Of a DNA stretch of 43,693 nt, positions 20,655 to 26,950 are shown piece by piece. The DNA lies in the NCBI GenBank assembly GCA_029936965.1, contig JAPYRG010000013.1:1-43693 (forward strand), given 5' to 3'. The notes under the pieces were generated by a model. That model was not told where the DNA came from. It worked only from the letters and a program-made list of their open reading frames with translations, and did no database searches. The stretch is from Fidelibacterota bacterium. GTDB taxonomy: Bacteria > Fidelibacterota > Marinisomatia > Marinisomatales > TCS55. How positions within the stretch are numbered: the first letter of the stretch is position 1; the number at the start of each line of letters is the position of its first letter. The position numbers and the translations under genes are program-made.

Positions 20655-22205
20655 TTAATCTTCCAGAATTTTACTTAAAGACATATGGATTATGGGACCT
20701 GCTTCAGGACCAAGAGAATTAATTTCACCATATGGAGATTTATGATGATTATATAAATAGGGAGGTACTTCATCCCACTCACTCTTTGGAATGATATAAC
20801 CTATTTCATCATTTGCTAATCCAAAAACAAATTTATAATCACCCTTCATCATTGATCTCAACGGTGGAATCTCAACAGGATCTATATTATAATCTTGACC
20901 TAAAGGTGATACGACGCCTCCGTTAATAATTTCTGGGTAAATTTCTCCAGGTATTGTTATGATTGATATTGGACCAATTTGTATAGATGCTATTTCTGTT
21001 TTCACATTCAACCATCCAACTGTACCATGGTCAATTACACCTAAAATAAAACCAAGTAAAAAATTTTTATTATCAAGCGGTATTGTGATTGTTTTTGCGC
21101 GTAAAGTAATTTTGGAATTTGATATTTCTACTGCATCTTTTGAACGAATTGCCTTAAGCGCTAATAAACCAAGCTGTTGCCCTTGTGCCTGCGTTTTTTC
21201 AAATGTTGCGCCATCAAGCATTGTTCCATTAAATGGATCAGCAATAGGGTGACTTGGATTAGTCGTCATTAACCCGCCAACTGCTCCATTAACAAATACG
21301 GAGATACCTCCAATTCCTTTTGCCAAAGTTGTATCCTTATTAAAAACTCCATTTTCAATAGAAGCCCTAAAATAATGTGGAAAATCTGATGATATTAATA
21401 GATTTTTACTCCATAGGGTCTCAGGATGATTACTCCAACTTATTAATGAACCCAAAGTTTCTTCTGAATTTCTATCGATTGCTTGTATAATTCTAATACC
21501 TGGATCTAATGCTTGAGGGTCTCGGGAATCAACAACAAACGGTATTGCACCTTTTAAATCTTGACCTATTCTAAGTTTTGCTGGAGTAAGGCTCTTTACT
21601 GCAGTAGCAATGGCTGCAATTGTTTGCTTTTTAACATACTGCATATATTTTTTATCTACGCCACTTTTAAAGTAACTAGGGCCCCAAATTCCAATTAGGT
21701 CCGGCGCTTGATGTACATGAGTACTAGAAATTATAGTATAATCACATCCGATATTCTTTTTTACTTCTTTTCTTATATCTACAGCATCATCATATATAAA
21801 ACCAACTGCATCAATACTTACAATAGCAATCTTGGTTTCTCCATCATCTATTACCATCACTCTAGACCAAAGATCATCATTAACCCCTTGTGCAGGGCGA
21901 CTATTATGAAATCCTCCTATCCAAATAGGATCAAACTTATTATTCCCATTAACGTCATTATAAAAGTCGCCTTTATCAGGTTCATATCTTGCATTGCCAT
22001 TTAAATCATTCCATGTATCAGTAATTTCAGGAGTTATAGGCATCTTTGCAAAACCAACAGATATTGAACCAATCTGTCCAGTATTTTTTAAATAAATATC
22101 AATGTCAAAATCGGGATGGCGATCTCTAAGATTATATTTAACACGAACTGCAAGTATTACTATTAAGAAAATAAACACTAAGAATAAATATTTTATAATC
22201 TTCAT
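20655..22205 (-). CDS. Neutral ceramidase-family protein (copy 2) with calcium-loop insert
   Basis: The 516-residue product has an N-terminal membrane segment (~5-22). The family's opening block (VGFAKMPITPE) is followed by an acidic insert with two DxNGN-type loops (DLNGNARYEPDKG and DVNGNNKFDP), which resemble calcium-binding loops. A metal-binding STHVHQAP (His about 164, 166) and a second-His block WSNHPETLW follow, then SSDFPHYF, IPGEIYPE (metal Glu) and DEIGYIIP (Tyr). The block holding the nucleophilic Ser in true ceramidases reads NGAVGGLMTT here, so that Ser is absent and the substrate or mechanism may differ. It sits 1 base after a deacetylase-like gene. Confidence 0.85.
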   Translation of the reverse strand: MKIIKYLFLVFIFLIVILAVRVKYNLRDRHPDFDIDIYLKNTGQIGSISVGFAKMPITPEITDTWNDLNGNARYEPDKGDFYNDVNGNNKFDPIWIGGFHNSRPAQGVNDDLWSRVMVIDDGETKIAIVSIDAVGFIYDDAVDIRKEVKKNIGCDYTIISSTHVHQAPDLIGIWGPSYFKSGVDKKYMQYVKKQTIAAIATAVKSLTPAKLRIGQDLKGAIPFVVDSRDPQALDPGIRIIQAIDRNSEETLGSLISWSNHPETLWSKNLLISSDFPHYFRASIENGVFNKDTTLAKGIGGISVFVNGAVGGLMTTNPSHPIADPFNGTMLDGATFEKTQAQGQQLGLLALKAIRSKDAVEISNSKITLRAKTITIPLDNKNFLLGFILGVIDHGTVGWLNVKTEIASIQIGPISIITIPGEIYPEIINGGVVSPLGQDYNIDPVEIPPLRSMMKGDYKFVFGLANDEIGYIIPKSEWDEVPPYLYNHHKSPYGEINSLGPEAGPIIHMSLSKILED

Positions 22206-22206
22206 A

Positions 22207-23199
22207 CTATATTCTATCTTTATGCCGTTTCATCATTTCTTTCCAATTGGTAAATAGAATACCTTTAATTTTTAAAAAATTAATAACATCTGGATCAGAA
22301 AACATTTTTGCTTCCCAGACTCTTTGTTGCCAAGAATTGGTAATTTTCTTTAGGCCATTGCTTTCAATAGATGGATGAAAATATATCTCCGTAATACCCG
22401 ATTCAAGATTTCTAATCAAATTATAAAAGCTCTCCTTTTTCTCATTATAGCTATTAGCGTTCGGTACTGGGACCATGTTATCAATCTTTGGCAACATATA
22501 CTTTGAAGCACTTGCTACTAATTGATCTGTAATAGGATAACCTTGTTTCTTGAATTTTTTAACTAACTCAGGTGTGAATTCAATAACATTAGCTGGAATA
22601 CCATACTCCATTGCTATATTAAAGAATAATTCTGCATACTCTACTTTACTATACAGTGTTCCCATATGCGTATCGATATGTCCCGGCTCAATGCCTAATT
22701 GTCTTGCACGATTTATTTGAGCTCTTATCTCTTTTTCAATATCATTTACAGATACACGAGATACAACATCCTCTACTCTTCTCCATAAATATCCCTCTGA
22801 ATCCGTTACGTTAGAATTCATTAATTCATTTGAAATAGGTCCCCATCGATACAATTTCCATTCACTTGTCAATGTTAAATGTAGTCCAATATCTTGATCG
22901 GGATTATTTTTATACCAATCCGCAATATCATTAAACCACGGACATGGAACCATTGCTGAAGCAGATTGTATTTGATTATTTAATAAATATGGAATTACAG
23001 CTTCATTTGCTTCAGAACACATACCAATGTCATCTGCATGGAGTATAATAACCTTACTCTTTTCAGGATAACCTAATTTTTCGGCCCAATTATTCCCTTT
23101 TAATTTAATTGGCTGTGATAGCTTAGTATGATTGTTGTTATTTGTTTCGCATGCCAAATAAACAAAAGAAATAGTTAGTAATATCAAAAAGATTTTCAT
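22207..23199 (-). CDS. YdjC/ChbG-like deacetylase, lipoprotein
   Basis: The 330-residue product has a lipoprotein leader ending VYLAC. It shows the YdjC pattern: ILHADDIGMCSEAN (metal Asp pair), IGLHLTLTSEW (His) and PGHIDTHMGTLY (His-x3-His). Known members such as ChbG remove an acetyl group from N-acetylated oligosaccharides in the cytoplasm; this one is exported, so it probably acts on an N-acetyl sugar or other N-acyl amide outside the inner membrane. It is coupled with an esterase upstream (6-base gap) and a ceramidase-family gene downstream (1-base gap). Confidence 0.85.
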   Translation of the reverse strand: MKIFLILLTISFVYLACETNNNNHTKLSQPIKLKGNNWAEKLGYPEKSKVIILHADDIGMCSEANEAVIPYLLNNQIQSASAMVPCPWFNDIADWYKNNPDQDIGLHLTLTSEWKLYRWGPISNELMNSNVTDSEGYLWRRVEDVVSRVSVNDIEKEIRAQINRARQLGIEPGHIDTHMGTLYSKVEYAELFFNIAMEYGIPANVIEFTPELVKKFKKQGYPITDQLVASASKYMLPKIDNMVPVPNANSYNEKKESFYNLIRNLESGITEIYFHPSIESNGLKKITNSWQQRVWEAKMFSDPDVINFLKIKGILFTNWKEMMKRHKDRI

Positions 23200-23205
23200 T
23201 GTATT

Positions 23206-24159
23206 CTAATCCCTTAAATATTGATTAAAGAACTTATCCATATAATGTTGAGTATAATTGTTTACAAGCCGAACAGCATCCATCGTATGTGGCCATCCTT
23301 TCAAAATATGATAGTCATGGTATACATTAACCTTTTTCAATGATTGATCTAACTTGTTTGTTTGATTTAATGGTACAAGTTCATCTAGTGTTCCAATAAA
23401 GGTCATCGTTGGAGGATCATCTTTAGTGACATAATATATTGGAGATGCAATAAGATATTTGTCAGGTTGACTTTTATAATCGGCACCTATAAAAAAACGC
23501 GGTTCTTTTCTATTTATAGCATAATCTGTCGTTAAATCAGTTGGTCCATAAAAATTTACTACTGCATCTACTTTATGAGATGCAGGCCCACTATCACAAT
23601 CTTCTATTCCAAAAGAGTTACCCATCGTATAAGCTGCCATTAACGCAAGATGTGCACCGGAAGATCCTCCAACAATTGCAACATTATTTGAGTCAATTCC
23701 ATATTCAACTGCATTATTTTTTAACCATTTAATTCCACAAATTATATCTTCCACCGCTGCAGGAAATTTTGCTTCTTGAGAAAATCGGTATGATAATGAT
23801 GCAGTGACAAATCCTTTTTCTGCATATGATAATAAATAAATAAGGTAATCTTTTTTATTTCCTTTTGTCCAACTACCACCATGTACAAAAATAATTAAGG
23901 GTGTTGGATTATCAATATCCTTCTCACGATATATATCAAGGAAAAGAGATCTCTGTTCAGTTTTTTTAAACTCCAAATCATTGAATACTTCAATGTTCTG
24001 AGGTGTTTCTGGTTTAGTATCAACCATATCAATCCAACCAAGCATTGCGGACCATTTTAAAAATGTATTATTTAAGTATCCACGTGGTGGCTTCATGTCA
24101 TTCTGTTCTGCTTTCATTATAGAAAGAGAAATAATAAAAATAATTAATATGTATTTCAC
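23206..24159 (-). CDS. Exported alpha/beta-hydrolase esterase
   Basis: This 317-residue protein starts with GTG, 1 base after the PAP2 stop, and has a signal peptide (~1-17, ending MKAEQ). It has the oxyanion motif HGGSW and the nucleophile elbow GGSSGAH (Ser), an Asp in the GTLDELVP block and a His in KGWPHTMD, the layout of carboxylesterases in the hormone-sensitive-lipase/BD-FAE group. It should cleave acyl esters in the periplasm. The surrounding genes attack amide and phosphate bonds, so a role in stepwise dismantling of acylated molecules fits, by inference. Confidence 0.9.
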   Translation of the reverse strand: MKYILIIFIISLSIMKAEQNDMKPPRGYLNNTFLKWSAMLGWIDMVDTKPETPQNIEVFNDLEFKKTEQRSLFLDIYREKDIDNPTPLIIFVHGGSWTKGNKKDYLIYLLSYAEKGFVTASLSYRFSQEAKFPAAVEDIICGIKWLKNNAVEYGIDSNNVAIVGGSSGAHLALMAAYTMGNSFGIEDCDSGPASHKVDAVVNFYGPTDLTTDYAINRKEPRFFIGADYKSQPDKYLIASPIYYVTKDDPPTMTFIGTLDELVPLNQTNKLDQSLKKVNVYHDYHILKGWPHTMDAVRLVNNYTQHYMDKFFNQYLRD

Positions 24160-24160
24160 T

Positions 24161-24886
24161 TTAGTTTAATGGGATTGTGATACGAATTGTAAGAGGGCTA
24201 TCTATGCTTACATATTTATTGTTTATCCTATCTCTATAGGTCAATGCAAACCCTCTTCCTACTGCCGTACCTAACCCGGCACCAAATATAACATCACTCA
24301 AATAGTGTTTATTATCATGAATTCTACTTGCTGCAACTAAGGCGGCTAAGCAATAAGCGGCAATACCAACTTCTTTTCCATAAAGTTCATTAGCAATTGT
24401 AGCGACTGTAAAACTATGAGAGGCATGACCAGAAGGAAATGATTTACAACAACCACCATTTGGCCTTACTCGTCCAAATGATCTTTTCATCAATTCAGTA
24501 ATTACTCCATTTGTAATCATAGCCAATGTGGAAAATTCAAGTTTTTCTGAAAGATAATTATATCCGATAGAAGATATGGAAGTACCTAGAATTGATGACC
24601 ATAGTATCCAATGCGCCCAATAACCACCATACATATCACCAAAGTGAGATACTTTTTCAGGTAATAGACCATTATCCTGTGCATATACTTTTATTTTTTG
24701 ATCTATTTTTGTTGAAGCAAATGCTGCTAAAGCAGCAGATCCTAAAATAAATTGGTTTGAATTATTTGATAATATTCTTCCACTCGATTCAGAAAAATAA
24801 TCTTTTAACTCATTATTGCTCTGAGCATCTAATATAGATGATATAATCAGTATATAAATATATATGTACTTATTTTTTATCTTCAA
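24161..24886 (-). CDS. PAP2-superfamily phosphatase
   Basis: The 241-residue product starts with TTG, whose last bases overlap the upstream TGA stop; no ATG gives a signal sequence. It has a signal peptide ending LDAQS and all three acid-phosphatase motifs: KRSFGRVRP, SFPSGHAS and SRIHDNKHYLSD, with the conserved Arg, His and Asp present. PAP2 enzymes remove phosphate from phosphatidic acid, undecaprenyl diphosphate or related lipid phosphates on the outer face of a membrane. Hydrophobic helices flank the motifs. It shares an operon with a symporter, an esterase and a deacetylase. Confidence 0.9.
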   Translation of the reverse strand: MKIKNKYIYIYILIISSILDAQSNNELKDYFSESSGRILSNNSNQFILGSAALAAFASTKIDQKIKVYAQDNGLLPEKVSHFGDMYGGYWAHWILWSSILGTSISSIGYNYLSEKLEFSTLAMITNGVITELMKRSFGRVRPNGGCCKSFPSGHASHSFTVATIANELYGKEVGIAAYCLAALVAASRIHDNKHYLSDVIFGAGLGTAVGRGFALTYRDRINNKYVSIDSPLTIRITIPLN

Positions 24887-25173
24887 AATATTAAATATAT
24901 AATAACGATCAACACCATTGCGGAAATTGCAAATGGTCTTAGGTTAATATCTTTCCCAGAATTTTTATCATTTAGAATAACTTCGGATTTGGGCAATTTA
25001 TATACCCAATAAGTGATTGATAAAAAATAAATAATAAATAAGGATTTAGCTATATGCAAATCGATACTTAGTAAAATTTCTCTCATAAGTTGACCAGGTA
25101 TACGAAAAAGATTAGATATGGTATCTGCAATGGATACGGATACAGATAAAATAATTGTTAATATATCAATCAT
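24883..25173 (-). CDS. Small membrane protein overlapping the symporter gene
   Basis: The 96-residue product has two clear hydrophobic segments (about 40-58 and 79-95) and an N-terminal amphipathic or hydrophobic stretch. Its ATG lies 8 bases inside the end of the symporter gene and its TGA overlaps the PAP2 start codon, so translation is coupled on both sides. I recognise no family. A small partner subunit of the symporter is one possibility suggested only by the overlap. Confidence 0.7.
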   Translation of the reverse strand: MIDILTIILSVSVSIADTISNLFRIPGQLMREILLSIDLHIAKSLFIIYFLSITYWVYKLPKSEVILNDKNSGKDINLRPFAISAMVLIVIIYLIF

Positions 25174-26950
25174 ATCTATATACCATCCCTCTTAATTTTT
25201 CCTCTGGTTCTTGTTTCGTATATAAACTCACGATTACTGTAAGCATTATGGAAAGGATGAATGACCACAGAGCCACATATAAAAAAGGTTCAGAAACTTG
25301 GAATAAAGGTATTGTAGCATTACTATGAACCCACATCAAAAGGGCAGAAAAAGAAACACCTCCGATTAACCCTACTAAGGCGCCTGTTCCAGTAGCTCGT
25401 TTCCATAAAACTCCTAAAATTATTATAGCAAGACTTGGGCCCTGGAAAAATGATAATAATGTTTGCGCTAGATCATACAGGCTTTCAAAACCAGTTGCAA
25501 ATTGCGCAACATAAATAGCTACTAATATAAAAATAATTGTAAAAACTCTTCCTACAACTAAGTAATGGGCATCATCTCCTTTAGGACGAAAATATTTTTT
25601 ATAAATATCTGTTGTCCAGACTGTTGCTGCAGAATTTAAAAATGAGTCAACACTAGACATCAATCCAGCAAGAAATGCGGCAAAGAAAATACCTATTAAT
25701 CCCGTAGGCATAATTTCTTTGATTAATGTTGCCATTGCTTTATCTGCATCTGCTATATTAGGATTGTAAGCTAATGCAATGATTCCAGGAACAACCATAG
25801 CAAATGGAATTAAAATTTTTAATAATGCTCCAAAAATATAAGAAGCTTTTGCATCAGCCATTGATCTTGCGCCTAATGCACGCTGAACTATTGATTGATT
25901 TCCAATCCAATATGCATTTGCTAGAACGAAACCTAAACCAAAAAGGATACCGGACCATGGGTGAGGTGTTTTTGTATCAACAGGTAATACAAGAGAAAAA
26001 TGATCTTTTGTCCGTTCTCCCATAGAGGTTATGATATTTACAAACTCACTTACACCACCGAGCTTAATAATCCCAAAAAACAGTACAAAAAGTGAACCTC
26101 CTAACATCACAACGCATTGAATTACATCTGTATACACAACGGCTCGAAGTCCACCTAAAAAAGTATAAACTCCTATCACAATTCCCATAATTAGAATTGA
26201 ATAAAATATATCCCAGTCCGGTTCCCGTGCGCGGTTCATATTCATTTCTCCCCAAGAAGAACTAATTTCATTTTCTGTAAAGGAGACAAATGGAATACCG
26301 GAAAATATATTTCTGTTATTTGATTCAGCTGATAAGTTTTTATCAATAAAAATGATAATTGGATTTCGATCTTTAGATAGTTGAATGCCTTTATCTATAG
26401 AACTAGCATAAATAAAATCATATTTTTTTTTATCTGTAGAATGAGCAACTTTTTCAACAACTGCTTTATCATCACTTAAAATTAATACTTTTGGGTTAAG
26501 ATCTAATAAAACGTTTAGCATTACTGCAGAAGCATATAATATGATTCCTAAATTAATTGGCATATAGATTCCCCATATCAACGCAGAAGTAGTTTGTACA
26601 GATGAATTATATCTTGCACCTAGCCATTCAGGAATTGTAGAAACTTTCTTTTTCCAAAACATAGGTATAAATAAAAAGGCAGCTATAATCATAACAGGAA
26701 CACTACCTAACCAATCATAATTCCCAAGTACTATACCATATAAGTAAGCTGATCCTGCAATTCCTACCATATCAATAGCACCAATATCAGAAACAACTAA
26801 TGACATGCCTATTGCCCACCAAGGTAAAGATCGTCCTGCTAGGAAATAATCTTTTCCAGACTTTATCTTTCTACCTATATAAGCACCAAAAACTACTGTG
26901 CCAACTAAGTAAATAATAATTATCGTATAATCTATTGGACCAAGTACCAT
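25166..26950 (-). CDS. Sodium:solute symporter (SSS/SLC5 family) with inserted ~95-residue domain
   Basis: The 594-residue protein has the SSS core: YFLAGRSLPWW after helix 1, the helix-2 block SDIGAIDMVG, TIPEWLGARY, FLGGLRAVVYTDVIQ in helix 5, NAYWIGNQSIVQRALGARS and SSVDSFLNSAATVWT. It should couple Na+ entry to uptake of a sugar, acid or amino-acid-like solute. Between helix 4 (~122-149) and helix 5 (~248-270) a hydrophilic insert of about residues 153-246 replaces a normally short loop. It reads KVLILSDDKAV, then YASSIDKGIQL and IIIFIDKNL. It is the first gene of the operon and is divergent from the quinone-oxidoreductase gene. Confidence 0.92.
   Translation of the reverse strand: MVLGPIDYTIIIIYLVGTVVFGAYIGRKIKSGKDYFLAGRSLPWWAIGMSLVVSDIGAIDMVGIAGSAYLYGIVLGNYDWLGSVPVMIIAAFLFIPMFWKKKVSTIPEWLGARYNSSVQTTSALIWGIYMPINLGIILYASAVMLNVLLDLNPKVLILSDDKAVVEKVAHSTDKKKYDFIYASSIDKGIQLSKDRNPIIIFIDKNLSAESNNRNIFSGIPFVSFTENEISSSWGEMNMNRAREPDWDIFYSILIMGIVIGVYTFLGGLRAVVYTDVIQCVVMLGGSLFVLFFGIIKLGGVSEFVNIITSMGERTKDHFSLVLPVDTKTPHPWSGILFGLGFVLANAYWIGNQSIVQRALGARSMADAKASYIFGALLKILIPFAMVVPGIIALAYNPNIADADKAMATLIKEIMPTGLIGIFFAAFLAGLMSSVDSFLNSAATVWTTDIYKKYFRPKGDDAHYLVVGRVFTIIFILVAIYVAQFATGFESLYDLAQTLLSFFQGPSLAIIILGVLWKRATGTGALVGLIGGVSFSALLMWVHSNATIPLFQVSEPFLYVALWSFILSIMLTVIVSLYTKQEPEEKLRGMVYRYD

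Follow-up and report, generated by a model that had tools for sequence, protein, structure and literature searches.

A degenerate receiver domain inserted into a predicted periplasmic loop of an SGLT-like Na+/solute symporter

A sodium/solute symporter (SSS) of a Fidelibacterota bacterium carries an additional domain between its fourth and fifth transmembrane helices (TM4 and TM5). Profile and structure methods give good support for homology between this domain and CheY-like receivers, mainly over β1–β4. The domain was gained once, is under purifying selection and has a degenerate active site. The window, the whole stretch of DNA that we analysed, comprises 43,693 nt of a TCS55 genome (GCA_029936965.1, contig JAPYRG010000013.1, positions 1 to 43,693); its relevant features are collected in Table 1.

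The symporter gene is intact, with a single open frame of 594 codons (594 aa) and no stops. Its product matched the Pfam SSF profile with an E-value of 2.7e-66 and 224.6 bits (cut-off 22.8) and TIGR00813 with 306.2 bits (curated cut-off 184). The full-length AF2 model had a pLDDT of 84, and Foldseek matched it to SGLT1/2 and vSGLT (SGLT2: E 2.4e-22, TMq 0.75). The protein belongs to the SSS (SLC5) symporters and is SGLT-like; it has the core fold and the aligned Na+- and sugar-site positions in common with vSGLT and other SGLT-type members of the family (TC 2.A.21). By the Na+-site and sugar-site assignments of vSGLT, the aligned transport-site positions K378, N345, Y347, Q496 and S432/S433 are conserved among the insert-bearing members, and S432/S433 would occupy the Na2-site serine positions. 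The substrates are probably sugars, carried in a Na+-driven manner.

The position of the insert follows from two alignments. SSF aligned to the symporter in two stretches, the best of which begins at residue 246, and the phmmer alignment with vSGLT broke off at query 150/vSGLT 159 and restarted at query 248/vSGLT 162. These gaps mark residues ~150–246 as extra, adding ~97 residues to a loop for which vSGLT has ~2. A reading of the DNA made from the letters alone (the sequence-only reading) had placed a soluble insert at residues ~153–246, a nearly identical interval. Insert-bearing homologues, found in Marinimicrobia, Omnitrophota, Verrucomicrobiota and one further lineage, have 93–115 residues at this site, whereas insert-free relatives have ~2. 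The junction of the closest insert-free relatives reads L(D/G)W or similar, with the flanking L(D/G) and W kept. For several other SSS matches in the same genome the flanking pieces aligned separately but only a few bases apart, indicating paralogues that lack the insert.

Table 1. Features of the symporter locus and of one related locus, with positions on the window unless a locus is named.
Feature	Position	Strand	Basis or remark
SSS/SGLT-type Na+/solute symporter with inserted domain	25166..26950	-	SSF, TIGR00813, vSGLT/SGLT1 matches, AF2, Foldseek
TM4 (residues 116–148), ahead of insert	26507..26605	-	AF2 helix
Inserted pseudo-receiver domain (residues 150–246), between TM4 and TM5	26213..26503	-	Alignments, profiles, AF2, Foldseek
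β1 of insert, followed by the receiver acid-pair positions	26477..26491	-	AF2; hhalign register
β3 of insert, ending at the acceptor position	26342..26356	-	AF2; hhalign
β4 of insert, followed by the receiver Thr position	26279..26290	-	AF2; homologue alignment
TM5 (residues 248–264), behind insert	26159..26209	-	AF2 helix start, vSGLT alignment; boundary to TM6 drawn by hand
96-aa protein, two apparent TM segments; overlaps the symporter stop	24883..25173	-	Conserved neighbour, no Pfam match
PAP2, BD-FAE-type hydrolase, YdjC-like protein and neutral ceramidase-like protein, behind symporter	20655-24886	-	
GH84-type β-N-acetylglucosaminidase	L041:6706-7998		Directly downstream of the L041 symporter pair

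The kinship of the insert with receivers was assessed with profile methods. An HMMER search of the PDB with the insert profile returned the PhoP receiver 1mvo as the best match (E 2e-4), and most of the 58 matches were receivers, aligned from β1 to β3 or β4. The best single-sequence matches of the insert were likewise response regulators such as PhoB, NblR and RstA. Aligned with hhalign to a profile of 30 receivers from related genomes, the insert profile scored 42.4 (probability 93.7, E 1.8e-7), compared with a maximum of 19.0 for 200 column shuffles and 11.6 for the reversed alignment; with the window's genus left out, the E-value was still 1.2e-6. The sequence-only reading had also suggested an HMM comparison with Response_reg, and its outcome was divided: one of 14 inserts matched Pfam Response_reg (PF00072), at E 0.094 and below the gathering score, and a Pfam search with the insert alone gave nothing useful, but NCBIfam response-regulator models matched single inserts, those of distant lineages included (PhoB in 10 of 14, best 1.5e-6). 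Because the PDB matches, the margin of the hhalign score over its shuffled and reversed controls and the predicted fold agree, the receiver-like order of strands and helices goes beyond chance. The likeness to the first half of a receiver, as originally perceived, is thus real and lies mainly in β1–β4. A convergent origin, with the insert being an extracytoplasmic α/β domain like that of ABC-2 permeases and without kinship to receivers, is very improbable. Such domains are extracytoplasmic and have a comparable strand-helix order, and an ABC type-2 transporter (3cni) was weakly matched in the PDB search (E 0.45); yet hhalign of the insert to the relatives' ABC-2 ectodomains scored only 12.4 (probability 0.2), and none occurred among the top 50 fold matches. 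We therefore rejected this identity.

Structure prediction returned an ordered domain. Modelled alone, the insert folded as β-α-β-α-β-β-α with a pLDDT of 87.4 and a pTM of 0.83; since the model was built from 15 related insert sequences, it supports the alignment but is not independent of it. The full-length model has the identical order, with strands at residues 154–158, 178–182, 199–203 and 221–224 and helices at 162–171, 185–195 and 231–238; pLDDT is mostly 85–90 across the blocks of the insert and 68 in residues 211–220. Receivers made up 49 of the top 50 PDB matches in Foldseek, the remaining one being a de novo design, and DivK matched with a TMq of 0.75. These results agree with the flavodoxin-like (Rossmann-like) fold that had been anticipated. 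For the window protein, AF2 predicts four strands instead of the five of a complete (βα)5 receiver.

The active site is degenerate in all 18 insert-bearing members examined in the hhalign register. The receiver acid pair falls on S159-D160, so that the pair D160-D161 (in KVLILSDD) picked out by the sequence-only reading was shifted by one residue. S, T, A or G occupies the first acid position, which is acidic in 0/18, whereas the second is D or E in 13/18. The phosphoryl-acceptor position (D203) is D in 13/18 and H, E or S in the other five. The Thr position (T225) is variable, with Thr or Ser in some members, and the β5 Lys was not found in any of the 18; neither position had looked convincing at the outset. 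The five catalytic residues DD, D, T and K are therefore not present together. A pseudo-receiver is defined as a receiver without at least one of these five residues (Bourret et al. 2025, PMC12632262), and by its sequence the insert is one.

Where the domain lies can be predicted from the topology of the family. The N-termini of SSS proteins lie outside (PMC7918813, figure 2 legend), which after four membrane passes places the TM4–TM5 loop outside as well. The alternate loops 27–43 and 101–115 are rich in K/R, in agreement with an outer position of loop 4–5. Taken with the homology to vSGLT, this points to a periplasmic location, the side originally proposed. The inserts contain almost no cysteine. 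Phosphorylation of the acceptor, which had not been expected on topological grounds, is also chemically unlikely, as no member has an acid at the first acid position. A working, phosphorylated receiver controlling the symporter is hence an idea we practically discount: the acceptor Asp in 13 members and the occasional Thr or Ser at the Thr position would fit it, but the first acid and the Lys are missing, five members have replaced the acceptor and the loop is predicted to be periplasmic.

The history of the insert was reconstructed on a tree of 39 core sequences from which the insert columns had been removed. All 18 insert-bearing proteins fall on one side of a single branch (support 100/99, 100% of bootstraps), adjoining proteins that lack the insert and come from the same phylum as the Omnitrophota genomes. 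The insert was gained once, by one change on this tree, and no loss occurred among the 18 proteins sampled. The deepest lineages, L026/L028 and L027, given a root that depends on the insert-free outgroup, carry the longest inserts (115/104 residues), and those of Marinimicrobia have 93–97. By eye, the end of the L027 insert reads like a receiver β5-α5 (GARDWVVPI...EL..AV); searched alone against the PDB, this insert found weak support, and none for the β5-α5 end. The longer inserts of the deepest lineages and this β5-α5-like end suggest that the insert was trimmed after insertion.

The insert is under purifying selection but less constrained than the core, with dN/dS values of ~0.2 and ~0.035, respectively; several dS values were saturated, and the close pairs are the reliable ones. 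In the segment from β4 to the end dN/dS was ~0.09, from few usable pairs. The divergence of the insert outpaces that of the core several-fold, and few of its residues are invariant. The insert is patchily distributed: it occurs in 14 of 245 genomes of the source phylum, in 1 of 388 of the phylum to which the Verrucomicrobia genome belongs, and in 2 of 14 and 2 of 68 of two other phyla. The symporter frame of L014 (L025) is broken by a TAA near the N-terminus. Genome G002, of the same genus as the window, has two insert-bearing matches on different contigs (L011 and L016), one of them cut off, which may be due to duplication or to an assembly of mixed strains.

Wherever the DNA downstream of an insert-bearing symporter was readable, it encodes a small membrane protein; beside more distant relatives that lack the insert, a shorter form of 69 aa occurs. 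We considered whether the N-terminal extension of the longer form arose together with the insert and rejected this, since the insert-free close relative L068 has the small protein with its extension too; the protein thus did not arise with the insert. PAP2-like and hydrolase-like ORFs occur in L041 as well, where a probable TonB-dependent receptor (by eye) lies upstream, and ORFs similar to the GH84 ORF of L041 follow the symporter in L024, L030 and L035. Guilt by association with the YdjC-like protein and BD-FAE hydrolase of the window and the GH84-type enzyme of L041 hints that the transported sugar is perhaps an N-acetylated amino sugar.

Among the functions considered, we prefer structural bracing or partner docking. 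On this reading, a receiver module was inserted once into the extracytoplasmic TM4–TM5 loop of an SGLT-like Na+/sugar symporter. The chemistry of phosphorylation was later lost, as were, in most lineages, the C-terminal strand and helix. The remnant would persist as a compact, constitutively folded, non-phosphorylated pseudo-receiver in the periplasm. There, on the outer side of the symporter, it may brace the TM4/TM5 hairpin or dock a partner, for example the small membrane protein encoded next to the symporter, while the core, driven by Na+, would carry sugar, perhaps an N-acetylated amino sugar. We hold it reasonably probable that the domain is such an accessory module. That a receiver moved outside the cytoplasm was recruited as an ectodomain for regulation or docking and controls the symporter from the periplasm is possible, and we put it forward tentatively.

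The main rival is a tolerated passenger, a receiver fragment that was inserted by chance recombination and folds harmlessly without a function of its own. We regard it as unlikely, though it deserves serious attention, as fast divergence and few invariant residues count against our proposal and fit a tolerated spacer equally well; the shrinking length, the unconserved active site and the rarity of the insert also speak for a passenger. Against it stand the dN/dS values, although selection that merely keeps a harmless fold would also give values below 1, and the retention of the fold across several phyla without a sampled loss. A periplasmic ligand sensor, in which the gating of the symporter would respond to a small molecule or ion bound in a pocket where the strands end C-terminally, appears improbable. 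The receiver fold offers a natural pocket at this place, and the acids at the second acid and acceptor positions, each kept in 13 of 18 members, could belong to it; but none of the pocket residues is invariant, the first acid is never acidic and the Lys is absent. The bracing or docking module remains our preferred reading.

Several known systems resemble the symporter in part. With CheY-like receivers (OmpR/PhoB-type, DivK) the insert shares the profile match in register over β1–β4 and the predicted fold; it differs in its predicted place in a periplasmic transporter loop, the lack of an output domain, the degenerate active site and the usual absence of β5-α5. Compared with the pseudo-receivers of Bourret et al. 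2025 (PMC12632262), the main text of which does not mention the periplasm or transporters, it is truncated and predicted to be extracytoplasmic. In CbrA and MxtR/CrbS, which are SSS-STAC-histidine kinase fusions, an SSS transporter is likewise joined to two-component modules, but there the signalling domains are C-terminal to the transporter (PMC7918813), whereas here the module lies inside it. Our literature search, covering few subscription journals or preprints, turned up no account of a receiver lodged in the loop of a transporter. The pseudo-receiver within an SSS symporter loop is a real domain architecture and apparently an undescribed one, in keeping with the novelty that the sequence-only reading had suspected. 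Receivers are familiar as signalling modules of the cytoplasm, and the mode of action of pseudo-receivers is still under discussion (PMC12632262). Here a receiver is built into the predicted outer loop of a transporter of a well-understood kind, and close relatives that lack the insert could serve as natural controls. Such a system would make it possible to ask what the fold does where there is no phosphorylation, no kinase and no output domain, and how a domain of cytoplasmic origin adapts to the periplasm as part of a membrane protein.
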